Of a stretch of DNA of 64,000 nucleotides, positions 20,997 through 36,317 are shown piece after piece. Position 1 is the first letter of the stretch; the number at the start of each line of letters is the position of its first letter. The position numbers and the translations under genes are program-made. This stretch comes from Amphiplicatus metriothermophilus (GTDB lineage: Bacteria; Pseudomonadota; Alphaproteobacteria; Caulobacterales; Parvularculaceae). The stretch lies in contig NZ_FZQA01000002.1 of the NCBI RefSeq assembly GCF_900199215.1, forward strand, positions 137,501 to 201,500, given 5' to 3'. The notes beneath the pieces are model-generated. The model made no database searches and was not told the origin of the DNA. It saw nothing but the letters and a program-made list of their open reading frames with translations.

Positions 20997-21779
20997 TCAT
21001 CCCGCCGCCGATCCCAGAAAGGCCGCTGCGCCGCCAAGGCAAAGGCCGGGACCAAAGGCGATCGGCGCGGCGGCGTCTACGCGTTTTCCCATAACGGCGC
21101 GCACGCCGACGACCGCCAGGGTCGCGAGCGCGCCGACGAACACCGCCGGCGCCAGCGCCGGCCAGCCGCCCCAAGCGCCGATGGCCGCCAGCAGCTTGGC
21201 GTCGCCCGCGCCGAGGCCTTCGCGCCCGCGCAACGCGGCATAGGCGAGAGCGATGAGGCCGAAAGCGGCGTAGCCCGCCGCCGCGCCGACGGCCGCGGCT
21301 TCGAGCGGAACGAATCGGTCCCCGACATTGGCGAGAAGTCCGAAAAGCAGAAGCGGCAGGGTGAGCGCGTCAGGCAGAAAACCCGTCTCGAAGTCGATCG
21401 CCGCGAGGGCGATCAGGCTCCACAGAAAGATCGCGGCGAGCAGCGCCTCCGGCGAAGCGCCGAACAGGGCGAGCGCGCCGAGGGCCGCGAGCGCGCCGGC
21501 GAGCTCGACGAGCGGATAGCGCGGCGGGATCGCCGCCCCGCAAGCCGCGCAGCGCCCGCGCAGCGCGAGGTAGCTCGCAAGCGGAATGAGATGGAGCGGC
21601 GACAGCCGCGTGCGGCATTGCGGACAATAAGAACGCGGCGCGAGCAGCGTTCCCCTGTCGGCGCCGTCCGATTCCTCGATCAGCCCCCACATGGACGGGC
21701 CGCGATAAATGACGACGTTCAAAAACGACCCGGCAAGAAGGCCCGCCAGCGCGGCTGTGACGTAAAAGAACCACTCCAT
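20997..21779 (-). CDS. gspO: Prepilin peptidase of the type II secretion system
   Basis: This 260-residue polytopic membrane aspartyl protease cleaves and N-methylates type IV prepilins and pseudopilins. It has a cytoplasmic tetracysteine loop (CPQCRTRL ... CAACGAAI) and the two catalytic Asp residues in AIDFETGFLPD and GLGAGDAKLL. N-terminal GSFLNVVIYR also fits the PilD/GspO family. The start at 21779 gives MEWFFYVTAALAG; the in-frame upstream extension is charged and less likely. It is divergent from the surface lipoprotein and about 6 kb from gspC. Since gspG-K are in this window and no other prepilin peptidase is, it is the natural processing enzyme for them. Confidence 0.93.
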   Translation of the reverse strand: MEWFFYVTAALAGLLAGSFLNVVIYRGPSMWGLIEESDGADRGTLLAPRSYCPQCRTRLSPLHLIPLASYLALRGRCAACGAAIPPRYPLVELAGALAALGALALFGASPEALLAAIFLWSLIALAAIDFETGFLPDALTLPLLLFGLLANVGDRFVPLEAAAVGAAAGYAAFGLIALAYAALRGREGLGAGDAKLLAAIGAWGGWPALAPAVFVGALATLAVVGVRAVMGKRVDAAAPIAFGPGLCLGGAAAFLGSAAG

Positions 21780-21817
21780 GAAATTGCGCGGCTCCGATTT
21801 ATTTCTGCGCACATAGT

Positions 21818-21914: not shown

Positions 21915-21954
21915 TTGTCACAAAACTGAAAATCAACCGTCATGTCACTGTCGC
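21915..21954 (+). promoter_or_regulatory. Pho box array (four PhoB-type heptamers)
   Basis: Four heptamers lie exactly 11 bp apart: TTGTCAC, CTGAAAA, CCGTCAT, CTGTCGC, separated by 4-bp A/T-containing spacers. PhoB binds CTGTCAT-like 7-mers with 4-bp spacers in pairs, so this is two consecutive Pho boxes in the orientation that would activate the lipoprotein gene starting 94 bp downstream. Heptamers 1, 3 and 4 match at 5 or 6 of 7 positions; heptamer 2 is weaker. Phosphate-starvation control is an inference from this pattern. Confidence 0.72.
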
Positions 21955-22047: not shown

Positions 22048-24837
22048 ATGAGGTTTCTTACGAACGTCCGTTCGATTCTGCTCGCCGGCGGCGCCGCGCT
22101 GGCGCTCGCCGCCTGCACCCAGGGCGAGGAAATCGCCTCGCCGGGGCCGAGCAATCCCGGCACGCCTCCGGGCGGCGGAGGCGGCGGCGGGGGCGGCGGG
22201 GGCGGCGGCGGGGCGCAGTGCCCAAGCGGCTTCACCGAAGGGACGGGCGTCGGCGGCTTCACCGTCTGCAATATTTCCGGCACGCTGCTCGGCGATCTCA
22301 CCCTGCCTTTCGTGCAGGGCGTCGCCTATCGCCTCGACGGGCGCGTGGATGTCGGCGAGGATGGCGGCCCGACCTGCTCCGGCGGGGCTGACGAAGCCAC
22401 CTTGACGATTGAACCCGGCGTCATTGTGTTCGGCGCTTCGGGCTCCGATTACCTGGTCGTCAATCGCTGCTCACGGATCATCGCCGACGGCGAGCAGAAT
22501 GCGCCGATCGTCTTCACCAGCGAGAACGACCTAGAGCGCCGGGCCGTCGATCCAAACGACACGGGCGGCTCTGCGATCTCCGAATGGGGCGGGGTGGTGG
22601 TTCTCGGCCGCGCGCCGATCAACCGCTGCATCGCCGGAACGCCGGGCACGGTCGACTGCGAGCAGACCATTGAAGGCGTCACGAATCCGGATGCGCTTTA
22701 CGGCGGCGCGACCGTCGACGACGACAGCGGCGTTCTGCGCTACGTGCAGATTCGCTTCGCCGGCTTCGCGATCAATCAGGACGGCGACGAGCTGAACGGC
22801 CTGACGCTCGGCGGCGTCGGTTCCGGCACGACCGTCGAATATGTCCAGGTGCATAACAATTCCGATGACGGGATCGAGGTCTTCGGCGGCGCGGTGAACC
22901 TCAAATATATCGTGCTCACCGGCAATGACGACGACTCCTTCGACCTCGACAACGGATGGAACGGCGCGACGCAGTTTCTGGTGATTAAGCAGCGCGACGA
23001 CGGCGGCGACAACGGAATGGAGCTGTCGAGCGCGACAGGCGTGACGCCGGCGACAAATCCGACGATCGCCAATTTTACGCTGGTCGGCGCGCGGTCCAAC
23101 GCCTTCCGCATCAATTCCGGCCATATCGGACGCTTCATCAACGGCGTGGTTTCCTATGGCGGGAACTGCTTCCGCTGGGAAAGCTCGGCGGGCGACGGGG
23201 ACCCGTCGTCCTATGGCGGCGTCGACGTCGATCCGACCTTCAACTCTGTGCTGTTCGACTGCGACGGCGAGCTGACCAACGATTCGCCGGACACGCCGGC
23301 GGCGGTTCAGTCGGTCAACGCCGATCCCAACAATGTTATCGGCGAAAGCTCGCTCGCCGCGACGTTCTTCCCCGGCCCGAACGAGCTTGCGGTCACGCCG
23401 TTCGATCTGACGACGCTTCCCGGAATGTTCTTCGAGGATGTCGACTATGTCGGCGCGTTCGGCCCGGATGAAACCGAGACAGATAATTGGGCGACCGGTT
23501 GGACCTTCGCCCTGTTCCCCGAACCGGGCTGCCCGGCTGGCACGACGGATACGGGTTCGACGATCGGCGGCGTAAAGGTTTGCAGCGTCAGCGGCGTTCA
23601 AACTACGGATCTTCGCCTTACGCGCGGCAATTATTACCGGCTCGACGGCAGGGTCGATATCGGCGTCGATGTCGGCGCCGACGGCGCCAAGGCCGGAGGC
23701 GTCGCGGCCGAACTGACGATCGAGTCAGGCGCCGTGATCTTCGGCGAAAGCGGCGACGACTACCTGGTCGTCAATCGCGGCTCCAAAATTTTCTCGAACG
23801 GCACGGCGCAGAATCCCGTCATTTTCACATCGCGGGCGGATCTGGAAGACAACCAGCCCGATCCGCTTAACGCCATCGGCGAATGGGGCGGGGTGGTGGT
23901 TCTCGGCCGCGCGCCGATCAACCGCTGCATCGCCGGGACGCCGGGCACGGTCGACTGCGAGCAGACCATCGAAGGCGTCACGAATCCGGATGCGCTTTAC
24001 GGCGGCGCGATCGCCGATGACGACAGCGGCGCGATCAGGTTTACGCAGATCAAATACGCCGGCTTCGCGATCAATCAGGACGGCGACGAGCTGAACGGCC
24101 TGACGCTCGGCGGCGTTGGTTCCGGCACGACCGTCGAATATGTCCAGGTGCATAACAATTCCGATGACGGGATCGAGGTCTTCGGCGGCGCGGTGAACCT
24201 CAAATATATCGTGCTCACCGGCAATGACGACGACTCCTTCGACCTCGACAACGGATGGAGCGGGTTCACGCAATATCTCATCATCGTTCAGCGCGAGCTT
24301 GGCGGCGACAACGGGATGGAACTGTCGAGCGCGACAGGCGTGACGCCGGCGACAAATCAGACGATCGCCAATTTCACGCTGGTCGGCGGGCGCTCCAACG
24401 CCTTCCGCATCAATTCCGGCCATATCGGACGCTTCATCAATGGCGTCGTGGCTTATGACGGCGCGCCGTGTTTCCGCTGGGAAAGCTCGGCGGGCGACGG
24501 GGACCCGTCGTCCTATGGCGGCGTCGACGTCGATCCGACCTTCAACTCTGTGCTGTTCGACTGCGCTGGTCTGACCAACGATTCGCCGGACACGCCCGCC
24601 GCCGTCCAGTCGGTGAACGCCGATCCCAACAACACGACGACGACGCCGGACTCGCTGATCAACACCTTCGTCAACGGGCCGAACGAATCCTCCGTGACGG
24701 CGTTCGACCTCTCGACGCTGGGCGGCGCAGCGGCGGCATTCTTCGATGACGTCGATTACATCGGCGCGGTTCGGGATGCGAACGACCGCTGGTGGGCGGG
24801 CTGGACCTGCGGTCTTGAGCCTGGCTCGGATTGCTGA
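22048..24837 (+). CDS. Large surface lipoprotein, two near-duplicate beta-helix-like domains (ElpS-like)
   Basis: This 929-residue lipoprotein has its lipobox at LAAC (Cys23), a Pro/Gly linker with 14 consecutive glycines (residues 42-55) and two copies of a domain of about 430 residues (about 58-485 and 495-925). Each copy starts with a CPxG..GT segment and contains EWGGVVVLGRAPINRC, a TLGGVGSGTTVEYVQVHNNSDDGIEVFGG block and FRWESSAGDGDPSSYGG. Repeating short beta-strand turns suggest a right-handed beta-helix, and the domain resembles uncharacterised surface proteins of Bacteroidetes and Proteobacteria. Paired Cys residues fit an extracytoplasmic site. Its position between Pho boxes and TonB receptor plus T2SS genes suggests a T2SS-exported, phosphate-starvation surface protein. 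I recall ElpS of Caulobacter as a functional parallel; orthology is not proven. The enzymatic activity is unknown. Confidence 0.85.
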   Translation: MRFLTNVRSILLAGGAALALAACTQGEEIASPGPSNPGTPPGGGGGGGGGGGGGGAQCPSGFTEGTGVGGFTVCNISGTLLGDLTLPFVQGVAYRLDGRVDVGEDGGPTCSGGADEATLTIEPGVIVFGASGSDYLVVNRCSRIIADGEQNAPIVFTSENDLERRAVDPNDTGGSAISEWGGVVVLGRAPINRCIAGTPGTVDCEQTIEGVTNPDALYGGATVDDDSGVLRYVQIRFAGFAINQDGDELNGLTLGGVGSGTTVEYVQVHNNSDDGIEVFGGAVNLKYIVLTGNDDDSFDLDNGWNGATQFLVIKQRDDGGDNGMELSSATGVTPATNPTIANFTLVGARSNAFRINSGHIGRFINGVVSYGGNCFRWESSAGDGDPSSYGGVDVDPTFNSVLFDCDGELTNDSPDTPAAVQSVNADPNNVIGESSLAATFFPGPNELAVTPFDLTTLPGMFFEDVDYVGAFGPDETETDNWATGWTFALFPEPGCPAGTTDTGSTIGGVKVCSVSGVQTTDLRLTRGNYYRLDGRVDIGVDVGADGAKAGGVAAELTIESGAVIFGESGDDYLVVNRGSKIFSNGTAQNPVIFTSRADLEDNQPDPLNAIGEWGGVVVLGRAPINRCIAGTPGTVDCEQTIEGVTNPDALYGGAIADDDSGAIRFTQIKYAGFAINQDGDELNGLTLGGVGSGTTVEYVQVHNNSDDGIEVFGGAVNLKYIVLTGNDDDSFDLDNGWSGFTQYLIIVQRELGGDNGMELSSATGVTPATNQTIANFTLVGGRSNAFRINSGHIGRFINGVVAYDGAPCFRWESSAGDGDPSSYGGVDVDPTFNSVLFDCAGLTNDSPDTPAAVQSVNADPNNTTTTPDSLINTFVNGPNESSVTAFDLSTLGGAAAAFFDDVDYIGAVRDANDRWWAGWTCGLEPGSDC
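22582..24590 (+). repeat. Intragenic tandem repeat, offset 1299 bp, with near-identical cores
   Basis: DNA from about 22582-23300 recurs at about 23881-24590. Large parts are identical or differ only at silent sites; for example, a stretch of roughly 160 bp from the start of the ctgacgctcggcggcgt segment differs at a single base. The flanking first part of each domain (22219-22560 versus 23527-23860) is far more diverged. This mosaic suggests a duplication kept uniform by recombination. Confidence 0.88.
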
Positions 24838-24911: not shown

Positions 24912-27530
24912 ATGAAGTCGAAACACGCGCTGAACGGCCTCCTGCTGGCCACCACCATGCTCATCGCGCCGATTGGCGCGGCGGCGCAGGACGCCAGCGA
25001 GACGGTCTTGCCGACTGCGCCGGTCTTCACAGATGAAATTATCGTTCGGGGCAGGAATATTCCTGAGCCGCAACGGGCGACGTCTCAGGTTGCGACGTTT
25101 CTGTCGGCTGAAGATCTGACGCGGACAGGCGACGACAACGCGGCTCTGGCGCTGACGCGCCTGTCCGGCCTCAGCGTCGTCGGCGGGCGCTTCGCCTATG
25201 TGCGGGGTCTCGGCGACCGCTATTCCGCCGCTCGTCTCAACGGCTCGCTTCTGCCGAGCCCGGAGCCCTTGCGTCGGACGGTCCCGTTGGATCTTTTTCC
25301 GTCCAACATCCTGCAAGGCGCGGTCGTCCAGAAAACCTATTCGGCGAACTATCCTGGCGAGTTCGGCGGGGGGATGATCGACCTGCAAACGTTGCGACGG
25401 CCGGACGAAAGCTTCGTCAACGTCAAGCTCGGCGTCGGCATGAATCTCGAAACAACCGGCAAGAACGGCGTCTTCGTGCGCGGCGGCGATCTCGACTGGC
25501 TCGGCTATGACGACGGTCTGCGTGATATTCCGGAACCGCTCGACGCGCTCATCAAGTCCGGAACGCCGCTCAACGCCCTGACCCCCGCAGAACGCGAGAC
25601 CGTCGGGGAAAGCCTCGTCAACTCGCCGCTTTTGGTTATTCAGCAAGGAACGCTTGGACCGAACTGGGAAGCGTCCATCGACGGCGGGACGTCTGTCGAC
25701 CTCGGAGGCGATCTTACGCTCGGCCTCGTCGGCGTCGCCGGCTATAAGCAGGACTGGGAGACGGAGAGAGCCGTTCGGCAGCGCGTTTCGGGCGACATTC
25801 TCGGAAACGACTTCGAAAGCGTCGAGACCAGTCTCAATGCGACGGTCAACGCCTTGGGCTCGGCCTCTCTTTCCTGGGGCGAGCACCTTGTTCAGACGAC
25901 GTTGCTCTACATCCATTCGGGGCGGAAAGAGTCCCAGATTCTCGAAGGGTTCAACACCAACTCTCCCGGCACGGGACAGGTGCTGGACGAACGCAGCTCC
26001 TGGCTGGAACGCCAGTTGTCTTTCGCGCAGCTGAGAGGCGAGCACGGTCTTGGCGACTTTGAAATCAATTGGCGCGCTTCGGCGGCGCGTTCGAAGCGGG
26101 ATACGCCTTATGAGCAGTTCCTGAGGCGCATCAAAAACGCCGACGGCGTGCCGCTCTATTCCCAAGCCAACAACCGCACTATCGATTTTTCGGACCTGAC
26201 CGATGATGCGCTGGGCGGCGGGATCGACCTAGTCTACCACGCTCCCTTCTCGGGACCGCGCGAAGCGACGATCACGCTCGGGTACGAATATTCAAACAAC
26301 GAACGGGAATACAACCTGCTCGCCCTGCGGTTCGCCGGGGGCAACTCGCTTCCGCCCGACGTACAGGCGGCGCGGCCGGACTTTCTGTTCTCGCCGGACA
26401 ATATAGATCCGGCCCGTTTCTTCCTTATCGAAACTCAGACAAGCTCGGATTCGTACAAAGGCGAGATGACGATCCATGCCGGTTACGGCCAGATCGACGC
26501 CGAGCTTATTCCAACGGTCCGCACGACCGTGGGGGTTCGTTATGAAGACGCCGACCAGTCGGTCATCACCTTCAATCGTTTCGCCGCATTCGATCCGGAT
26601 CCGAGGAATTTCGGCCCCTCGACGGAATTGCTGAACGATTACTGGCTGCCGTCGGGGACGGTGACGTGGAATTTCACCGACAATATGCAGTTCCGCGTCG
26701 GCTACTCGCATACGATCGCACGGCCGCAGTTCCGCGAGCTTTCTCCTTCTCTGTTCTTCGATCCCGAAAATGATCGGTCCTACCGCGGCAACCGGTTCCT
26801 CGTGGACAGCGAATTCAGAAACTACGATGCGCGATATGAGTATTATCTCGGAAGAAACCAGTTTCTGACTCTCGCGGGATTCTACAAAACTATCGAAAAT
26901 CCGATCGAGGAAATTCAGTTTGAGTCGACGCAGTTCGAGTTCGATACGACCTTCATCAACTCGCCGCGGGCGCGGCTGTTCGGCGGAGAGGCGGAGTACA
27001 GAACGCGGTTCGCCATCGGGTGGAACGACTGGTTCGACCGTCGCGACTGGCTGTTCTCGGCCAACTATACCTACACCAACTCGGAGATCAGGCTGAAGGA
27101 CGGCGACACGGTCATCAATCCGTTCTCGGGCGCGCCTCAGTCGGCCGAGCTGTTTGGACTCGACGGTGCGCCGCTGCAGGGTACGCCGAAGCATATCGTC
27201 AATTCCCAGTTCGGCTGGGAAGGCGAGAACGATCAGTTTACGGTGCTGCTCGGTTGGGTCGGCGAGCGCATTCTGCAGCGGGGCAGCCCGAATGCATCGG
27301 GCGGGATTCCGGACGTCATTGAAAAGCCCGGCATCCAGCTCGATGTCGTCTATCGCTACGACATCGCCCTGTTCGGCGCAGACGCCACGATCGGTCTGGC
27401 CGCCCGGAACCTGACCGGGACCCGCCACGAGGAGTTCCAGCTCAGCAACGCGACCGAAAGCGGCCGCACCGAGTTCGACACTTACGACCGGGGGCGCAGC
27501 CTGTCGGCGAGCCTGACAGCCCGGTTCTGA
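24912..27530 (+). CDS. TonB-dependent outer-membrane receptor (lipoprotein/T2SS-linked)
   Basis: This 872-residue protein has a signal peptide ending near AAAQ, a TonB-box-like DEIIVRGR at about 41-48, a plug domain (SAEDLTRTGDDNAALALTRLSGLSVVGGRFAYVRGLGDRYS) and a 22-strand-type barrel. Barrel features include the conserved SHTIARPQFRELSPSLFFDPE segment and a C-terminal aromatic residue (SLTARF). It should import a large or scarce nutrient using TonB/ExbBD energy. The substrate is not readable from sequence. Its place 74 bp after the lipoprotein and just ahead of gspC suggests it works with the secreted lipoprotein, possibly in phosphate-related acquisition if the upstream Pho boxes drive it. 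Confidence 0.92.
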   Translation: MKSKHALNGLLLATTMLIAPIGAAAQDASETVLPTAPVFTDEIIVRGRNIPEPQRATSQVATFLSAEDLTRTGDDNAALALTRLSGLSVVGGRFAYVRGLGDRYSAARLNGSLLPSPEPLRRTVPLDLFPSNILQGAVVQKTYSANYPGEFGGGMIDLQTLRRPDESFVNVKLGVGMNLETTGKNGVFVRGGDLDWLGYDDGLRDIPEPLDALIKSGTPLNALTPAERETVGESLVNSPLLVIQQGTLGPNWEASIDGGTSVDLGGDLTLGLVGVAGYKQDWETERAVRQRVSGDILGNDFESVETSLNATVNALGSASLSWGEHLVQTTLLYIHSGRKESQILEGFNTNSPGTGQVLDERSSWLERQLSFAQLRGEHGLGDFEINWRASAARSKRDTPYEQFLRRIKNADGVPLYSQANNRTIDFSDLTDDALGGGIDLVYHAPFSGPREATITLGYEYSNNEREYNLLALRFAGGNSLPPDVQAARPDFLFSPDNIDPARFFLIETQTSSDSYKGEMTIHAGYGQIDAELIPTVRTTVGVRYEDADQSVITFNRFAAFDPDPRNFGPSTELLNDYWLPSGTVTWNFTDNMQFRVGYSHTIARPQFRELSPSLFFDPENDRSYRGNRFLVDSEFRNYDARYEYYLGRNQFLTLAGFYKTIENPIEEIQFESTQFEFDTTFINSPRARLFGGEAEYRTRFAIGWNDWFDRRDWLFSANYTYTNSEIRLKDGDTVINPFSGAPQSAELFGLDGAPLQGTPKHIVNSQFGWEGENDQFTVLLGWVGERILQRGSPNASGGIPDVIEKPGIQLDVVYRYDIALFGADATIGLAARNLTGTRHEEFQLSNATESGRTEFDTYDRGRSLSASLTARF

Positions 27531-27666: not shown

Positions 27667-28533
27667 TTGGCGGTGATCGGGCAGGACCAGTTTGAACGCT
27701 CGGCGGCTTTGGCGATGCGGGCGCGGTCATGGCTGCGCCGTCTGACCGGCTCCGCCGGCTCTTTCGGCGGGCTTAAGGCGATCGATGCGCCGCGCTTGGC
27801 GGAATTCGGGCTGGCCGCGCTGATCGCCCTTCTCTGCGCCGGGATCGCCCTCGACATGGTCGCGCCGCTCCCGGTTTCGCGCAAGCCCGCTGTTCCATCC
27901 GCGGCGCGCGCGGATCGGGGAATCGAAGCCCGCAATCCTTTCTTTTCCCCCGCGCGCGAGACGGCGCAGACGGCCGCCGCGCCGGCGGCGGAGACTACGC
28001 TCGATCTCAAGCTGCACGGCACATGGATCGACGATGCGGGCGGCACGGCGATCATTCGCACGCCTGACGGCAAGCAGAAGACCTACGCCGTCGGAGATGC
28101 GGTCTGCTGCGGGGCGCGGCTCGACGGCGTGTTCGCCGACCGCGTGGTCATTCTGCGCGACGGCGTGCGGGAATCGCTCCGCCTGCCGCGCGACATGGAC
28201 GCATCCGCGCGCGCCGCCGCCCCGACGACGGCACCGCCCCCGGCCAAACGGAATGCGGAGGATTTGCGCCGGATCATCCGCGTGCAACCTGTTTCCTCGG
28301 TCGGCGGCGCGCGTTTCGCTCTCTTCCCGGCCGGCGACGTCGCTGCGTTCGAAGCCCTTGGGCTTCGCGAAGGGGACATATTGCTTCGGATCAACGGCGC
28401 GCCTGCGCCGCAGGACGCAGAAGGTTTCGCACGTCTCGTCAACACGCTCGCCGACGCCGGCGAGGCGACGCTGACGGTCGAGCGCGATGGCGCGACCGCG
28501 ACAGTTCGCATTGCGCCCGCCGCCGGAGGCTGA
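27667..28533 (+). CDS. gspC: Type II secretion inner-membrane protein GspC
   Basis: This 288-residue protein has one membrane helix (LAEFGLAALIALLCAGIAL), a periplasmic homology region (LKLHGTWIDDAGGTAIIRTPDGKQKTYAVGDAVCCGARLDGVFADRVVILRDG) that docks on the secretin, and a C-terminal PDZ domain (EALGLREGDILLRINGAPAPQDAEGFARLV). The likely start is the TTG at 27667, preceded by AAGGTGAG at good spacing; a GTG lies two codons later. It opens the collinear gspC-N run and links the inner-membrane platform to the outer-membrane channel and substrates. Confidence 0.92.
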   Translation: MAVIGQDQFERSAALAMRARSWLRRLTGSAGSFGGLKAIDAPRLAEFGLAALIALLCAGIALDMVAPLPVSRKPAVPSAARADRGIEARNPFFSPARETAQTAAAPAAETTLDLKLHGTWIDDAGGTAIIRTPDGKQKTYAVGDAVCCGARLDGVFADRVVILRDGVRESLRLPRDMDASARAAAPTTAPPPAKRNAEDLRRIIRVQPVSSVGGARFALFPAGDVAAFEALGLREGDILLRINGAPAPQDAEGFARLVNTLADAGEATLTVERDGATATVRIAPAAGG

Positions 28534-28543
28534 TGCGCAGGAG

Positions 28544-30544
28544 ATGGCTCATCGCATGAAAATGACTGTTGCGTTCCTTGTCTGCCTGGCTGCTATCGCA
28601 AGCGCAGCCGACGCGCAGGACTCTGCGCGACAAACCTGCGGGGCGGCGATCAATTACGACGACGCAGACATCAGGGCCGTGGTCGACGAGATCGCCCTGC
28701 GCACCGGTCGGACGTTTCTGCTCGATCCCCGCGTGCAGGGCCGCGTAACGGTGAAATCCCCCCCCAATGGCGGTTTGTGCGCTGACGAAGCCTGGGAGCT
28801 GTTCCAGGCGATGCTGCGGGTGAACGGCTTCACGGCGACCCCGATCGGCTCCGGCAAGTACAAGATCGTGCCGGCGCAGGAGGGGCCGCGCGCAGCCGGC
28901 CCGGTCGGCGAGGCGGAAGGCGGCGATATCGTCACGCAGATCGTCCGCTTGCAGCATGTCGATGCGCGCGAGGCGGCGGCGAACCTTTCCCAGATCATCA
29001 ACGAGCGCGGAGTCGCGGCGCCGGTGCGCAGCGGCAACGCGCTGATCCTTGTCGACACAGCCGACAACATGGCGCGTTTGCGCGAAGTGCTCGCCCAGCT
29101 CGACCGCGACACGACCATCTATCGCACCATCCCGCTCAACTACGCCTCGGCCGGCGAAGTCGCGCGCGTCGTAGGCGGCCTGGCTCAGGAGATCACCGAA
29201 GAAGGCGGGCAGCGCGCGAAGATCAGCGTCGTGCCGGTCGAGGCGAGCAACAGCGTGCTCATTCGCGCCGAACCGGCGATCATCAACCGCCTTTCCAGAA
29301 TCATCGCCGAGCTTGATCAGATCGGTCAAGCGAAATCGGATTTGTCGGTGATATACCTCGACCATGCGGATGCGGAGGAGATGGCGTCGCTGCTCCGTGA
29401 GATTGCGGACGCGCAGACGACAGCCGGCGAAGACGGCGCGTCAGGCCGGCCGCGCGCGACCATATCGTATCACAAGCCGACCAACGCGGTGATCATCAAC
29501 GGCGATGCGGACATGCAGCGCACGCTGAAGAACGTCATAGCTCAACTCGACGTGCGCCGCGCGCAGGTTCTTATAGAAGCGATCATCGTCGAGGTTTCTG
29601 ACAGAACCGCCCGCGAGCTCGGTCTGCAATATTTCCTGACGGGGACAAAGGGAAGCTCGATTCCATTCATGACGACGAATTTTCGCTCGACGCAGCCGAA
29701 TATCCTGGCGCTGGCGGGGCCCACGTTGATCGAAACGGGCGTGCTGCCTGATACGTTCGAAGACTTTCGCGAGGATCTCGCGGAAGCCGCGCTCAATTCG
29801 CTCCTGGGCCTCAACGGGCTCGGTCTGGGCGGAGCGGGACGCATCGGCGACGACGGCGTGTTCAGCGCGATCCTGACCGCCATCAAACAGGACGACACTT
29901 CGAATGTGCTGTCGACTCCCTCGGTCGTCACTTTGGACAATCAAACGGCGCGGCTTTCGGTCGGGCAGGAGATACCGATCACCACCGGCGAGGCGATCGG
30001 CGACGATTTCACGAACGCCTTTCGTACGATCTCGCGCGAAGAAGTGGGCGTCATTCTGGAAGTGACGCCGCAGATCAACGAAGGCGGCACGATCACGATG
30101 GAGATTTCGCAGGAGACCTCCAGCGTCGCCGGGCAGATCATTGAGGAGTCGACCGATCTCATCACCAACAAGCGCGAGCTGACAACCATGGCTTTGGTTG
30201 ACGACGGCGATATTCTGGTGATCGGCGGCCTGATCGACGATCAGTCATCTACGCGACAGGACAAGGTGCCGCTGCTCGGCGATATTCCGGTCGCGGGCAA
30301 TCTGTTCCGGTCGTCCGGCAGAACCCGCGAGCGGCGCAATCTCATGGTCTTCATCAAACCCACGATCTTGCGGGATCGCGAGACGGCGCGCGCGGCGACG
30401 ACGAAGAAGCTGAACTATCTCAAAGCGCGGGATTCGCTTTACCGGGGCGAGCCGACATCGGATCTCGAGCGGCTTATCGAGCAGGCGACGGGCCTCGACC
30501 GGCCGGCCGACGCCGGCGACGCCAACGCCAACGACAGACCATGA
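28544..30544 (+). CDS. gspD: Type II secretion secretin GspD
   Basis: This outer-membrane channel subunit of about 666 residues has a signal peptide (MTVAFLVCLAAIASAADAQ), an N0 domain (INYDDADIRAVVDEIALRTGRTFLLDP) and three N1-N3 repeats (VRLQHVDAREAAANLSQII, IPLNYASAGEVARVVGGL, IYLDHADAEEMASLLREI). The secretin domain has VLIEAIIVEVSD, SNVLSTPSVVTLDNQTARLSVGQEIPI and VPLLGDIPVAGNLFRS. The start is at 28544 or the ATG at 28556, both behind AGGAG. The C-terminal residues after FIKPTILRD resemble an S-domain position. The stop overlaps the gspE start (ATGA). Confidence 0.96.
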   Translation: MAHRMKMTVAFLVCLAAIASAADAQDSARQTCGAAINYDDADIRAVVDEIALRTGRTFLLDPRVQGRVTVKSPPNGGLCADEAWELFQAMLRVNGFTATPIGSGKYKIVPAQEGPRAAGPVGEAEGGDIVTQIVRLQHVDAREAAANLSQIINERGVAAPVRSGNALILVDTADNMARLREVLAQLDRDTTIYRTIPLNYASAGEVARVVGGLAQEITEEGGQRAKISVVPVEASNSVLIRAEPAIINRLSRIIAELDQIGQAKSDLSVIYLDHADAEEMASLLREIADAQTTAGEDGASGRPRATISYHKPTNAVIINGDADMQRTLKNVIAQLDVRRAQVLIEAIIVEVSDRTARELGLQYFLTGTKGSSIPFMTTNFRSTQPNILALAGPTLIETGVLPDTFEDFREDLAEAALNSLLGLNGLGLGGAGRIGDDGVFSAILTAIKQDDTSNVLSTPSVVTLDNQTARLSVGQEIPITTGEAIGDDFTNAFRTISREEVGVILEVTPQINEGGTITMEISQETSSVAGQIIEESTDLITNKRELTTMALVDDGDILVIGGLIDDQSSTRQDKVPLLGDIPVAGNLFRSSGRTRERRNLMVFIKPTILRDRETARAATTKKLNYLKARDSLYRGEPTSDLERLIEQATGLDRPADAGDANANDRP

Positions 30545-32046
30545 GCGACGCCAGCACACAGTCGCCGGTGAGATTGACTTACGCGTTCGCCAAGGAGCGC
30601 GGACTCGTCGTGCTCGATGGCGCGTCGCGGCCGGTCGTCGTCGGGTCGCGCGGCAGCCCCGATCCATGGGCGCTGATCGAGGCGCGCCGGGTCGCCGACG
30701 CGCCGATCCTCATCGAGGAGATGCCGCCGGAGGCCTTTGAGCGCCGCCTGTCGGAGATTTACTCCGTAAACGCCATTCACGCCGACGATTTCGCGATGGA
30801 GGGAGACGAAGGCGATCTCATGTCGCTGGCCGAGGGGCTGCCCCAGACCGCGGATCTGCTGGAAGCTGAGGACGACGCGCCCGTCATCCGGCTTATCAAC
30901 GCGCTCATCGCTGAAGCGGTGAAGACGCGCGCCTCTGACATTCATATAGAACCCTACGAGAAAAGCCTGTCGGTGCGCCTGCGCATCGACGGCGTTTTGC
31001 GGGAAGTTTTGTCTCTGCCGGCGCGCATGACGGCGGCGCTGGTCTCGCGGGTGAAGGTCATGGCGCGCCTCGACATCGCGGAAAAGCGGGTGCCGCAGGA
31101 TGGGCGCATCTCCATTGCGCTCGGCGGCAAGGCGGTCGACGTGCGCGTTTCGACCCTGCCGGCCCGTTACGGCGAGCGGGTCGTCATGCGAATTCTCGAC
31201 AAGGAGGCCGCGCGACTCGACCTCGAGACGCTGGGCATGCCGGAAGACGTGAAGAGCCGTTTCAAGCAGGCGCTGCGCCGGCCGAACGGGATCATCCTCG
31301 TCACCGGCCCCACGGGTTCGGGCAAGACGACCACGCTTTACGCCGCGCTGACGCTGCTCAACGATCCGAGCCGAAACATCCTCACCGTCGAAGATCCCGT
31401 GGAATACGCCATCGACGGAATCGGTCAGACGCAGATCAACCCGCGCGTCGGCATGACTTTCGCGACCGGCCTGCGCGCGATTCTTCGTCAGGATCCGGAT
31501 ATCGTCATGGTCGGCGAGATCCGCGACGTGGAGACCGCCGAAATCGCCATTCAGGCCGCGCTCACCGGCCATCTTGTCCTGTCGACGGTGCACACCAATT
31601 CGGCGGTCGGCGCGGTCACGCGCCTGCGCGACATGGGCGCGGAGCCGTTTCTTCTGTCCTCCACCATCGCTGCGGTGATGGCGCAGCGTCTGGTGCGCCG
31701 GCTGTGCCCGTCCTGCAAGGAGCCGCACGCGCCGGACGAGGCGGAGCGGAGCGTCCTCGGCCTGGCGGCCGATGCGGCGGTCGAGATTTATCGCGCCGCG
31801 GGATGCGGACGCTGCGGACATACGGGTTACGAAGGCCGGATAGGGGTGTACGAACTGATCGTCGCCGACGAGACCTTGCGCAAGCTCATTCATGACGACG
31901 CCAGCGAACAGACGCTCGCCGCCCACGCCTTCCGCCATGCCGACACGCTCGCGCAATGCGGCTTCCGTCATGTGCTCGCCGGCGTCACGTCGCTTGAAGA
32001 AGTCCTCAGGGTCGTGCGCCAGGAGGAAGACGATGCCGGCCTATGA
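30541..32046 (+). CDS. gspE: Type II secretion assembly ATPase GspE
   Basis: This 501-residue cytoplasmic hexameric ATPase has Walker A GPTGSGKTT (Lys262), an Asp box (RASDIHIEPYE, LRIDGVL), Walker B-region RQDPDIVMVGEIRDVETAEIA and a His box (GHLVLSTVHTN). The zinc-binding tetracysteine CPSC ... CGRC identifies it as a GspE rather than a PilT. It powers pseudopilus assembly. It overlaps gspD by 4 bp and gspF by 14 bp. Confidence 0.97.
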   Translation: MSDASTQSPVRLTYAFAKERGLVVLDGASRPVVVGSRGSPDPWALIEARRVADAPILIEEMPPEAFERRLSEIYSVNAIHADDFAMEGDEGDLMSLAEGLPQTADLLEAEDDAPVIRLINALIAEAVKTRASDIHIEPYEKSLSVRLRIDGVLREVLSLPARMTAALVSRVKVMARLDIAEKRVPQDGRISIALGGKAVDVRVSTLPARYGERVVMRILDKEAARLDLETLGMPEDVKSRFKQALRRPNGIILVTGPTGSGKTTTLYAALTLLNDPSRNILTVEDPVEYAIDGIGQTQINPRVGMTFATGLRAILRQDPDIVMVGEIRDVETAEIAIQAALTGHLVLSTVHTNSAVGAVTRLRDMGAEPFLLSSTIAAVMAQRLVRRLCPSCKEPHAPDEAERSVLGLAADAAVEIYRAAGCGRCGHTGYEGRIGVYELIVADETLRKLIHDDASEQTLAAHAFRHADTLAQCGFRHVLAGVTSLEEVLRVVRQEEDDAGL

Positions 32047-33247
32047 GTACGAGGCGCTCGACCCTTCGGGGCGCGCGCGCCGCGGGATCGTCAGCGCCGA
32101 CAGCCCGCACCAGGCGCGCCGCGAGTTGCGCCGGCTGCGGCTCACGCCGCTGCGCCTGTCCGCTCCCCGGGCCGAGCGCGCCGGCCGGCTGGGCGGGCGT
32201 CGGCCGCCGCGGCTCGGGCATGGCGCGATCGTGCTCGTCACGCGCCAGCTCGCCGCGCTCGTGGCCGCCGCGACGCCGCTCGAGGAGGCGCTCAACGCCG
32301 TCGCTCTGCAGACGGAGAAACCGGCCGCGCGCGCGCGCCTTCTTGCAGTGCGCGAACGGGTGATGGAAGGCTGGCGCTTCGCCGACGCCCTGGCCGAAGA
32401 TCCGCGCTCCTTCTCCGATCTTTATCGCGCCGTCGTCGCGGCGGGAGAGACCTCCGGCGATCTCGCTGGGGCGCTCGATCGGCTTGCGACCATGCTGGAG
32501 AAGAATCGCGCCATGCGCAACAAGGCGCTCGCCGCGCTGGTCTATCCGGCCGTGCTGGCGCTCGTGGCCGGCGGCGTGCTGACCTTGCTGATGACGACGG
32601 TCGTGCCCAAGATCGTCGAGCAGTTCAACGCTTTCGGCGGCGAGCTGCCTGCGATCACCCGCGTCGTGATGGGGCTGTCGCATTTCATCGGCGCTTACGG
32701 GCTGTACCTGCTCGTCGGCGTGATCCTCCTCCTCGCCGCCTTCTGGAGAGGCATGAAGACGCCGGCCTTCAAGCTCGCCGTCGACCGGGCGCTATTGCGC
32801 CTGCCGGTCATCGGCCGGCTGTTGCGCGGGCTAGACGGAGCGCGCTTCGCCCGCACGCTCTCGACGCTGGTCGCGGGCGGGGCGCCGCTGCTCGACAGTC
32901 TCGCCGGCGCGCAGCGCACCTGCGCCAACGATTACATCCGCGCCCGGCTCGACGGCGCCATCGCGATGGTGCGCGAAGGCGCCTCGCTCGCGAACGCGCT
33001 GCGCCGGGCGGGCGCGCTGCCGCCGATGATGACGCATATGGCCGCCGCCGGCGAGCGATCGGGCGCGCTCCCGGATCTGCTTGACCGCGCCGCCGCGCAG
33101 CTTGAAGACGAATTTGATGCCGCTTCCACCGTCGCGCTAAGATTGCTCGAGCCGGCGATTATTTTCGCGATGGGCGGCGCGATCATGGTGATCGTGATTT
33201 CGATCCTGTTGCCGATCCTGCGGCTCAACGCCCTGGCGGCCGGGTGA
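32033..33247 (+). CDS. gspF: Type II secretion inner-membrane platform protein GspF
   Basis: This 404-residue protein starts MPAYEYEALDPSGRARRGIV, the GspF/PilC N terminus. Two homologous cytoplasmic helical domains follow (LVTRQLAALVAAATPLEEAL and FARTLSTLVAGGAPLLDSLAGA), each before membrane helices (LAALVYPAVLALVAGGVLTLLM, LYLLVGVILLLAAFW, IIFAMGGAIMVIVISILLPI). AGGAGGAAG lies just before the ATG at 32033; the open frame upstream is inside gspE. It is the rotating adaptor that GspE acts on. Confidence 0.95.
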   Translation: MPAYEYEALDPSGRARRGIVSADSPHQARRELRRLRLTPLRLSAPRAERAGRLGGRRPPRLGHGAIVLVTRQLAALVAAATPLEEALNAVALQTEKPAARARLLAVRERVMEGWRFADALAEDPRSFSDLYRAVVAAGETSGDLAGALDRLATMLEKNRAMRNKALAALVYPAVLALVAGGVLTLLMTTVVPKIVEQFNAFGGELPAITRVVMGLSHFIGAYGLYLLVGVILLLAAFWRGMKTPAFKLAVDRALLRLPVIGRLLRGLDGARFARTLSTLVAGGAPLLDSLAGAQRTCANDYIRARLDGAIAMVREGASLANALRRAGALPPMMTHMAAAGERSGALPDLLDRAAAQLEDEFDAASTVALRLLEPAIIFAMGGAIMVIVISILLPILRLNALAAG

Positions 33248-33271
33248 GTTCAACCGAACGCCGGAGAGAAT

Positions 33272-33739
33272 ATGAAAGAACGCATCGAACTACGGATCAA
33301 GGATCGCAGCCGCGCGCAGCGCGGCGTGACCCTCATCGAGCTTCTCGTGGTGCTCGCCATTCTGACCTTCATTTCGGCGATCGTCGTGGTCAACGTCCTG
33401 CCCGAGCGCGACCGCGCCGCGGCGCGCAAGGCCAGAATCGACATCGGCGTAATCGAAAGCGCGCTCGAGCAGTACCGCCTCGACATGATGACCTATCCGA
33501 GCACGGAGGAGGGTCTGGACGCGCTGGTCGAGCCTCCGCCGAACGCGCCGCGCGCCGATCAATACCGGCCCGGCGGCTATATCAAGCGCGGCGCGGCGGT
33601 CGACCCCTGGGGCAACCCTTATCAGTACCGCTATCCTGGCGAGTACGGCGTGTACGATCTTTTCTCCTACGGCGCGGACGGCGAACCGGGCGGGGAGGGG
33701 ATCAACGCGGATATCGGCAACTGGACGCCCGAACGCTGA
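33272..33739 (+). CDS. gspG: Major pseudopilin GspG
   Basis: This 155-residue prepilin has a 17-residue basic leader ending in G18, with cleavage before V19, and the conserved Glu at mature position +5 (VTLIELLVVLAIL). The first mature residue is Val rather than the usual Phe. C-terminal GspG features are present: YRLDMMTYPSTEEGLDALVEPP, DPWGNPYQYRYPGEYGVYDLFSYGADG and the Ca-binding-type end GGEGINADIGNW. It forms the pseudopilus shaft after processing by GspO. The stop overlaps gspH by one base (TGATG). Confidence 0.96.
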   Translation: MKERIELRIKDRSRAQRGVTLIELLVVLAILTFISAIVVVNVLPERDRAAARKARIDIGVIESALEQYRLDMMTYPSTEEGLDALVEPPPNAPRADQYRPGGYIKRGAAVDPWGNPYQYRYPGEYGVYDLFSYGADGEPGGEGINADIGNWTPER

Positions 33740-34248
33740 TGAGACGGAACGTTCAAAGCGGCCTGACGCTCATCGAGCTGCTGGTCGTGCTGGCGATTCT
33801 CGCGCTTACGGCGTCAGTCGTCGTTCTCAATGCGCCGCCGTCGCGTCAGACCGCGCGGGTCGAAGCCGAACGCTTCGCTGCGCGGCTCGATGCGGCGATG
33901 GCCTCGTCGCTTACGACAGGCGCGCCTTTGCGCCTTGCGACGACGCCGGCGGGCTATCGCTTTGAGCGCTATGCGGATGGGGGCTGGAACGCGCAGGAGG
34001 GCGAGGGTCCCATGGCGCCGCGCGCGCTGCCTCGCGAGGTCGCGCTGGCGTTCGAAACGCAGGACGCGGCGTTCGCCAACGCCGCGCCCGACGAAGCCGG
34101 AAAAGCGGAAGCGCCGCGCCGCCTGACGATCGACCCGGTCGGCGTCGGCGACGCTTTCGCCGCGGTATTCTCCGATGGCGAACAGATCTGGCGGGTCGAA
34201 ATCGATCATGCCGGAACGATTACGGTGACGCGCGATGACCGTTCGTGA
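33739..34248 (+). CDS. gspH: Minor pseudopilin GspH
   Basis: This 169-residue prepilin has cleavage site SG|LTLIELLVVLAIL (G8, Glu at +5) followed by about 130 residues of globular domain. The GspH identity rests on position after gspG, length and the N terminus; the globular part is poorly conserved. Its start is the ATG at 33739, in the last bases of gspG, and it overlaps gspI by 14 bp. It should join the pseudopilus tip complex or the junction between tip and shaft. Confidence 0.88.
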   Translation: MRRNVQSGLTLIELLVVLAILALTASVVVLNAPPSRQTARVEAERFAARLDAAMASSLTTGAPLRLATTPAGYRFERYADGGWNAQEGEGPMAPRALPREVALAFETQDAAFANAAPDEAGKAEAPRRLTIDPVGVGDAFAAVFSDGEQIWRVEIDHAGTITVTRDDRS

Positions 34249-34615
34249 CGCTGACAGCCAAAAAGGCTTCACCCTCATCGAAGCGCTCGTCGCGCTGGTC
34301 GCGCTCGGTCTCGTCGTCGGGGGCGCCCTGGCGTTGATTGCGCAGAACGCCCGTTTCATCGCCGCTGCGGAGGACCGGCTCGTCGCGCAGGCGCTTGCGG
34401 ATAATCTGATGGTCGAGGCGCTCGCCGCCTCGGCGCCGCTGGAACGCGAGGTGACAAGCGGCGAGACCAGTTTCGCCGGCCGCGACCTGCGCTGGCGGCG
34501 CGTCGTGGTAGAGACCGGCGTCGACGACGTCGTGCGCATCGATATCGACGTGCGTCGCCGCAAAGTCGGACAGACGCTCGCCGCGGCGACATCGCTCAAA
34601 CGGGAGCGATCCTGA
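34235..34615 (+). CDS. gspI: Minor pseudopilin GspI
   Basis: This 126-residue prepilin has cleavage site KG|FTLIEALVALVALG (G11, Glu at +5). The following NLMVEALAAS and the basic beta-strand-rich C-terminal half (LRWRRVVVETGVDDVVRIDIDVRRR) are typical of GspI. It nucleates the tip complex with GspJ and GspK. It overlaps gspH by 14 bp and gspJ by one base. Confidence 0.92.
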   Translation: MTVRDADSQKGFTLIEALVALVALGLVVGGALALIAQNARFIAAAEDRLVAQALADNLMVEALAASAPLEREVTSGETSFAGRDLRWRRVVVETGVDDVVRIDIDVRRRKVGQTLAAATSLKRERS

Positions 34616-35274
34616 TGCGGCGCGCGCAAGGCGGATTCACGCTGGTCGAACTTCTGGTCGCGCTATTCATCTTCGCGCTGATCGCCGGCGCGGGCGTCGT
34701 CGCCCTGCGCCTTGGGGTCGATGCGCGCGAGCAACTCGACGCGGCCGATCGTCGCCTGCGCGAGATGGAGATCGCGCGCCTCATCGTGAAGGAAGACCTC
34801 GCCCAGACGGTCGCTCGCCCCGTTCGCGACGCGTTCGGAGAACGGCTTGGCCCGCCTTTCCTCGGCGGCGTCGAGACCCGCGTCCGTCCGCCGATTGAAG
34901 GCGAAAGACTGCTTCTCGCCTTCGTGCGCGGAGGCTGGATCAATCCGGAAAGCGCAGCCCCGCGTTCAAGCCTTCAATATGTCGAGTATCTGGTCAAGGA
35001 CGACGCATTGATCCGCCGCGTGCGCCCTTATCTCGACGATGCGCGCGGCCAGCCGTCCTTCGAGCGCGTGCTGGTCTCCGGCGTATCGAATGTGGAGATC
35101 GCATTCCTCGCAGGGGAGGCCGGCGGCGCGCTCCAATGGGCGGAAGGATGGCCGGCGCCGGGCGGCGCCGGCGGCCTGCCGCGCGCGATGTCGCTTTCCT
35201 TCTCGACCGAACGGTTCACGGATTTTCGCCAGCTTTTCTGGGTCGGCGCAGTGGCGACGGGGGAGCGGTCATGA
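34615..35274 (+). CDS. gspJ: Minor pseudopilin GspJ
   Basis: This 219-residue prepilin has cleavage site GG|FTLVELLVALFIFALIAG (G7, Glu at +5). The family landmark VKEDLAQTVARPVRDAFG is followed by FLGG and the LLAFVRGGWINP segment. It forms the tip with GspI and GspK. It is coupled to gspI (TGATG) and gspK (ATGA). Length is within the usual GspJ range. Confidence 0.93.
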   Translation: MRRAQGGFTLVELLVALFIFALIAGAGVVALRLGVDAREQLDAADRRLREMEIARLIVKEDLAQTVARPVRDAFGERLGPPFLGGVETRVRPPIEGERLLLAFVRGGWINPESAAPRSSLQYVEYLVKDDALIRRVRPYLDDARGQPSFERVLVSGVSNVEIAFLAGEAGGALQWAEGWPAPGGAGGLPRAMSLSFSTERFTDFRQLFWVGAVATGERS

Positions 35275-36317
35275 GCCGGCCGATCGTTCCGCATGCGCCG
35301 GCGGATCGCGGAAGCGGGCGCCCCTCGAGTTCCGCATTCCGGTCCGGCCAAAAAGGCGCCGCACTGATCGTCGTCCTGCTGCTTGCCGCGACGCTCTCCT
35401 TCGTGGCGCTGGCGATCAGCGAACGGACGGTTCTCGCCGCCCAGCGCGCCGTTCACGCGCGCGCGCGCGCCGAGGCGCTCTGGCGCGCCTTCGGCGCCGA
35501 GGCGCTCGCGGCGGCGGCGCTGGCGGCTGCGGCGCGCGAGACGCCTGAGCGCATGACGCTCGACGAGCCCTGGATCGAACGCCCGATCGAAGTCCCGATG
35601 GAAGGCGGAAGGGCGGTCATCTGGTTCGCCGATGCGGGGCGCTGTTTCAATCTCAATGGGCTCGTGCGCGCTGACGGCGATCAGCTCTACGTCGCGCGCG
35701 AGGGCGCCGGCGAAGAACTCGCCGCGCTGCTCGATGCGGCGGGGGCGGGGGCCGGGGAGGCGGCGCGGCTCGCCGTCCTCGTCCAGGACTGGATCGACGC
35801 CGACAGCCTTTCCGCGCCGCAGGGGGCGGAAGACGGCTATTATCTCGGTTTGCCGGTCCCGTATCGCACGGGCGGAACGCTCCTTGCGGACGAGACGGAA
35901 ATGCGCGCTCTCGCCGACATGACGCCTGAGTTTTACGCGTTCGTCCGGCGTTATGCCTGCGCGCTGCCGACCCCCGAACCGTCGCCGCTTAACGTTAACA
36001 TGTTGCGCGCGGAGGACGCGCCTTTGCTGGTCGGGCTTCTTAAAGGCGCGATCAGTCTCGCCGCGGCGCAGGACGTCGTCGCCGACCGGCCGCCGGGCGG
36101 TTATGGCGCGGTTGACGAGTTCTGGAGTCACAGGGCGTTCGAGGACGTCGATGCGACGCAGGATGTCCGCAACCGGGTCGCGATCACGTCGCGTTACATC
36201 GCGGCGCGGGCGGAGATAGAGTATGAAGGCGTCGCCAGGGAGGCTCGAATGCTGTTCGAAATTGGCGAGGGCGGCCGCGTAAGGCTGCTGCGCCGCCGGC
36301 TGGGGCCCGACGCATGA
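35271..36317 (+). CDS. gspK: Minor pseudopilin GspK
   Basis: This 348-residue prepilin has an unusually long 29-residue leader ending KG|AALIVVLLLAATLS. Position +5 is Val rather than Glu, the known hallmark of GspK, which caps the tip. Later segments WFADAGRCFNLNGLV, VLVQDWIDAD, PLNVNMLRAEDAPLL and GYGAVDEFW fit the GspK alpha-domain insert. The start is the ATG at 35271 overlapping the gspJ stop. Overlaps gspL by 4 bp. Confidence 0.94.
   Translation: MSRPIVPHAPADRGSGRPSSSAFRSGQKGAALIVVLLLAATLSFVALAISERTVLAAQRAVHARARAEALWRAFGAEALAAAALAAAARETPERMTLDEPWIERPIEVPMEGGRAVIWFADAGRCFNLNGLVRADGDQLYVAREGAGEELAALLDAAGAGAGEAARLAVLVQDWIDADSLSAPQGAEDGYYLGLPVPYRTGGTLLADETEMRALADMTPEFYAFVRRYACALPTPEPSPLNVNMLRAEDAPLLVGLLKGAISLAAAQDVVADRPPGGYGAVDEFWSHRAFEDVDATQDVRNRVAITSRYIAARAEIEYEGVAREARMLFEIGEGGRVRLLRRRLGPDA

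Follow-up and report, generated by a model that had tools for sequence, protein, structure and literature searches.

Why would a bacterium keep two copies of one domain within a single lipoprotein, close to identical in DNA at their centres and clearly different at their ends? The question is raised by a gene of Amphiplicatus metriothermophilus lying in the window, by which we mean the whole 64,000-nucleotide stretch that was analysed (contig NZ_FZQA01000002.1, positions 137,501 to 201,500). The initial annotation, made from the letters alone, had described a lipoprotein of two domains of about 430 residues, and the open reading frame does encode 929 residues, with a lipobox (LAAC) and two domains of about 435 residues. 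The gene, its parts and its neighbours are as follows, in window positions.

20997..21812, minus strand: prepilin peptidase (gspO-like), divergent, upstream (Pfam PF01478/PF06750)
21937..21954, plus strand: Pho-box-like site CCGTCATGTCACTGTCGC, matching CTGTCAT-N4-CTGTCAT at 11/14 positions, 111 bp upstream of the start codon
22048-24837, plus strand: two-domain ElpS-family lipoprotein gene (open reading frame of 929 aa, homology)
22048..22116, plus strand: predicted lipoprotein signal peptide and lipid-anchored Cys23, lipobox LAAC (sequence)
22117..22218, plus strand: stretch after the cysteine, with an IASPG motif and a Gly-rich linker (motif count, model)
22219..23529, plus strand: β-helix domain A, residues 58-494, 437 aa (self-comparison, model)
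22576..23295, plus strand: homogenised core of domain A (silent-codon breakpoint fit)
22864..23022, plus strand: acidic ladder of domain A, D273 D274 E277 / D295 D296 D299 / D321 E325, invariant or nearly so
23530..24834, plus strand: β-helix domain B, residues 495-929, 435 aa (self-comparison, model)
23875..24594, plus strand: homogenised core of domain B (silent-codon breakpoint fit)
24163..24321, plus strand: acidic ladder of domain B, D706 D707 E710 / D728 D729 D732 / D754 E758 (alignment)
24912..27530, plus strand: TonB-dependent receptor (TBDR), presumed partner (Pfam PF00593)
28034..28474, plus strand: small open reading frame, gspC by position only, no Pfam match
28487..36317, plus strand: type II secretion genes gspD to gspK (Pfam)

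Searches of Pfam, NCBIfam and PHROGs with the window protein returned no family, and neither sequence nor profile searches of the PDB yielded anything relevant or a matching solved structure. Each domain is 43% identical to the single-domain elpS product of Caulobacter vibrioides (locus L090; E 6e-102 and 9e-96), and the gene order elpS-TBDR-gspD is common to the window and that locus; in Caulobacter crescentus, elpS is likewise laid out with cc0171, a TBDR gene, and the type II cluster (PMC2996285). By homology and gene order, the window protein is a two-headed member of the ElpS family. What had been taken for a domain family of no known function is thus that of a phosphate-starvation lipoprotein (PMC2996285), although, recognised as the family is, the molecular function of ElpS is still open in the literature. 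With ElpS itself (CC0170; PMC2996285) the window protein shares its nature as a lipoprotein, the gene order, the conserved cysteine, invariant core residues and a Pho-type signal. It differs in that ElpS has one domain (~50 kDa), whereas the window protein has two, with A- and B-specific ends and a homogenised core. The single-domain layout of the type member is therefore not found here, and we treat layout as variable and non-defining: ElpS was already known, and what is new is the two-headed, face-homogenised form.

A match was found in 76/100 relatives. Two-domain genes are the usual form in the window's own family and are also present in three further families of its order, and single-domain genes were seen in the Caulobacteraceae members examined and, outside the order, in Xanthomonas. 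A TBDR gene lies on the same strand, at most 2.5 kb downstream, in 124 of the 127 loci with enough sequence, including many without type II genes in the sequence examined, so the lipoprotein gene's constant companion is the receptor rather than the secretion system. The window's receptor matched only the Pfam β-barrel model, and a separate plug-domain match was not reported.

Caulobacter ElpS is a phosphate-starvation-induced lipoprotein of the outer-membrane surface, present in stalks along with its TBDR; surface exposure and proteolytic release have been demonstrated for Caulobacter ElpS only, and the type II system there is required only for release, not for surface location (PMC2996285). 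In Caulobacter, TonB receptors belong to the PhoB regulon, as does the type II system (PMC11208175). In another phylum, the FI, FII and FIII proteins of Flavobacterium johnsoniae (Fjoh_3856, Fjoh_0546), reported as 31-36% identical to the Caulobacter protein and likened to the window protein by published description only, rank with the lipoproteins most strongly induced at low phosphate; FI is the most abundant exoprotein there, and two of the low-phosphate lipoproteins adjoin TBDTs (PMC8115612). ElpS-type lipoproteins count among the main low-phosphate exoproteins in Flavobacterium, yet in the literature that we found their bound ligand is not established, and our search found no later functional study of ElpS or of the Flavobacterium relatives.

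Scoring 66 family upstream regions for matches of at least 11/14 to CTGTCAT-N4-CTGTCAT, we found Pho-box-like sites at the spacer of 4 in 28, located 91-212 bp before the start, against 0-3 regions at spacers of any other length and 2 when the minus strand was scored; as scored, the enrichment across ElpS-family upstream regions is spacer-specific. In the window itself, four half-sites 11 bp apart (TTGTCAC, CTGAAAA, CCGTCAT, CTGTCGC) occupy 21915-21954, and their spacing suggests a tandem double Pho box. At the other end of the signal peptide, Cys23 is invariant in a 49-sequence alignment, its lipid modification being predicted from the lipobox, and the stretch that follows is of low confidence (disordered) in the predicted model. 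An [IV]-x-SPG motif (its SPG in the window is at 22138-22146, residues 31-33) stands 7-8, rarely 9-11, residues past the lipidated cysteine in 47/66 family members, and could be a surface-export signal, since the type II system is not needed for ElpS to reach the surface.

Turning to the mosaic, domains A and B are 75% identical overall, and when two breakpoints are fitted to the silent codons by maximum likelihood, the cores come out almost exactly where they had first been drawn (about 22582-23300 and 23881-24590). Identical silent codons number 194/213 in the core and 50/101 in the flanks (LR 65; 0/300 permutations equally good), which bears out the claim that core identity extends to third positions while the flanks have diverged; the longest exactly identical runs are 142, 94 and 60 nt. 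Divergence along the repeat is accordingly not uniform: in 20-codon windows, nucleotide identity between A and B is 40-62% in the N-flank and mostly 77-100% in the core. Two details needed adjustment. The identity of the cores is strong, but "near-perfect" was slightly too much, because three diverged islands (77-82% nucleotide identity) lie within them; and the divergence noted for the first part of each domain is real, but the C-terminal flanks have diverged as well.

Is this mosaic particular to one gene? We compared A and B segment by segment in 54 two-domain genes, and the layout proved family-wide. The flanks behave as orthologues, A with A and B with B: in 314 of 324 cases the closest domain from a different gene is of the same type (107/108, 103/108 and 104/108 in the three flank segments); in the two core segments, by contrast, the own-gene partner is the closest domain of all in 51/108 and 50/108. 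Segment trees agree, with own-gene A-B sister pairs in 0/54 genes for the N-flank, 27/54 for the core (supports 84-100) and 2/54 for the C-flank. By these trees and counts, therefore, the genes share an old duplication, and homogenisation of their cores has taken place repeatedly. The silent similarity S, corrected for codon usage, is above zero in the core of 54/54 genes (0.02-0.78) and about zero in the flanks; because it is positive in every gene and reaches 0.78 in the window gene, gene conversion, as judged from silent sites, is recurrent across the family and recent in the window gene. The recent conversion initially proposed thus stands for this gene, not as one event but as an instance of a process recurring in its 54 relatives. 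As some close orthologues with near-saturated silent sites keep amino-acid identity of up to 0.95, we relied on a contrast between faces of the protein and not on bulk amino-acid and silent numbers. The possibility that the variable core is fast-evolving among close relatives was rejected, the rate there being about that of the flanks.

The faces come from structure prediction. AlphaFold2 models the full protein with pLDDT 89.8 and pTM 0.79, and domain B alone with 96.4 and 0.95, each domain being a predicted right-handed β-helix. The acids of the ladder, invariant or nearly so, sit on consecutive coils of this predicted helix. Fold matches at Z 18-22 include phage tailspikes, NosD, AlgE4, PL6 and PL9 lyases and polygalacturonases, with tailspikes, NosD and AlgE4 at Z 20-22; PL9 Pel9A (1ru4; Z 19.5) has the highest identity among the fold matches listed, 18% over 298 residues. 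Matches of this kind to a predicted model show fold, not function.

Viewed column by column, sameness in the core is discontinuous and alternates along the predicted β-helix coil. Within genes, segments such as 241-247, 293-302, 319-336 and 351-360 reach identities of mostly 0.7-1.0, with many positions at only 0.12-0.3 between species, while the long strands 229-236, 262-269, 284-291, 307-314, 339-347 and 362-370 are weakly or not homogenised. The period of sameness is 27 residues, about one helix coil, and accounts for 56% of the variance (0/2000 block shuffles), a test independent of the face assignment, which was made from DSSP strand positions of the predicted model after the per-column pattern had been seen. 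Variable positions off the long-strand sheet are 0.80 identical within genes and 0.30 between species, against 0.50 and 0.36 on the sheet: a within-gene gain of 0.51 vs 0.17 (Mann-Whitney p 1.6e-13). The contrast holds in the 17 genes with nearly saturated silent sites (within/between 0.75/0.29 off the sheet, 0.44/0.34 on it). It also appears in five two-domain genes placed in the Gammaproteobacteria by search level and genome kinship (off the sheet, 0.66-0.86 within vs 0.42-0.50 between; on it, 0.47-0.63 vs 0.39-0.46).

Conversion tracts are normally far longer than the roughly 35 bp over which sameness alternates; on this ground we infer selection acting atop conversion, either to keep one face alike or to keep A and B distinct on the other. 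The split between the two processes is not clean, because silent similarity, too, drops somewhat on the long-strand sheet (0.175, against 0.295 off it), and tracts may partly avoid the sheet. The family is an unusually clear natural case in which conversion and face-specific selection might be separated inside one gene. Of the two explanations offered at the outset, gene conversion and selection for identical faces, both have found support, the one in silent homogenisation in 54/54 genes and the other in face-specific sameness, and they probably act together. The further idea that the diverged flanks set specificity found no clear support: they are conserved A-type and B-type segments and not obviously specificity regions. 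The homogenised core face would be the better candidate, since it is the part that varies between species.

What, then, might two matching heads be for? We think it fairly probable that this is a two-headed, Pho-regulated surface lipoprotein that captures a ligand or partner twice and works with the adjacent TonB-dependent receptor. The protein would be lipid-anchored at the surface and made under PhoB-type control when phosphate is short, each head a right-handed β-helix whose acidic ladder is invariant and whose rim varies between species. Presenting the same binding face, the heads would form a built-in, tethered dimer that captures the same ligand, or touches the same partner, twice, and passes the ligand to the receptor. 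The face differs between species, and recurrent intragenic conversion and selection for sameness would keep both heads alike. The domain ends, A-type or B-type, would remain distinct, as would one sheet in either helix, because they do separate structural jobs (packing, linker, cap). The matching faces suggest that both heads bind the same partner or nutrient; we infer ligand capture for the receptor, probably of a phosphorus-containing compound, and likewise which side of the two-headed protein would touch what. As a lipid-anchored surface partner encoded beside a TonB-dependent receptor, the protein would resemble SusD or PusD with their SusC-type receptors, but it is a predicted β-helix, whereas SusD has a helical fold, and the SusD-type Pfam domains PF07980 and PF14322 had no match in it. 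Against this receptor-partner model, however, cc0171 is constitutive while elpS is induced in Caulobacter (PMC2996285), and a strong Pho box was found in only 28 of the 66 upstream regions. Nor did co-variation with the TBDR pick out the homogenised face, whose partial r was 0.50 against 0.68 in the N-flank. The face-resolved pattern indicates which surface matters, pairs the lipoprotein with a specific receptor and invites point-mutant tests.

More tentatively, and as a possibility towards which we do not lean, the homogenised face could be the specificity surface of a phosphorus-scavenging receptor system, diversifying between species with its ligand; a polymeric or symmetric ligand, held by both faces simultaneously, would require the heads to match. 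If true, the protein would be a covalent dimer in which the two binding faces evolve together through gene conversion, with selection on one face of a β-helix.

A serious rival, albeit an unlikely one in our estimation, is an enzymatic β-helix: heads resembling polysaccharide lyases or hydrolases, with the acidic ladder as a calcium or catalytic site and two active sites working on the same polymer. The fold matches to AlgE4, PL6, Pel9A and polygalacturonases and the invariant acids on consecutive coils speak for it, as does the higher secreted phosphatase activity on elpS overexpression (PMC2996285). On the other hand, ElpS is associated with alkaline phosphatase and is not itself one, having shown no phosphatase activity when refolded or immunoprecipitated (PMC2996285). 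The 103-domain alignment holds no invariant Lys, Arg or His. Moreover, the window protein is without detectable sequence homology to the pectate-lyase-like proteins (AlgE4, PL6, PL9 Pel9A, NosD, tailspikes), so that the likeness is one of fold only: the Pfam search gave no enzyme family (pectate lyase, PL9, GH28), the solved-structure profile search no match, and the same fold serves non-enzymes such as NosD.

Could conversion alone suffice? Recombination would then act wherever the domains are still similar, the flanks having escaped long ago by drift, with no selection for sameness. Silent sites are indeed homogenised in every gene, such a process is self-limiting once copies diverge, and the left core boundary falls at a conserved EWGG motif. 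Yet sameness alternates every ~12 residues (~35 bp), finer than the expected tracts, and holds up where silent sites approach saturation; between species, residues 116-178 (the N2 flank) are better conserved than 318-427 but are not homogenised; and the gammaproteobacterial genes repeat the face contrast. We therefore regard purely neutral conversion as quite unlikely.

Improbable, to our minds, is diversification driven by outside attack, in which conversion copies each escape from phage or predator recognition into both heads: the family is surface-exposed, and one face varies between species yet matches in both heads, but among close relatives the variable part of the core does not outpace the flanks, and the acidic ladder is invariant. 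Tandem repeats can mislead assembly, but an artefact, a collapsed copy or a one-off duplication has a negligible chance of being the answer, because the copies differ by ~9% even in the core and about 50 relatives share the layout, single-contig genomes (e.g. G033, G064, G072) included.

Single-domain (L060, L062, L063) and two-domain (L008, L042) versions coexist in one family (f2), and the single-domain ones are B-like at the C-terminus, so heads may have been gained or lost repeatedly. Beyond the order, ElpS-like genes with two domains are present in another class of the same phylum (L160-L164, the gammaproteobacterial genes above). Their A-type flanks are no closer to the A of the window's family than to its B, and a separate duplication is therefore possible behind them.
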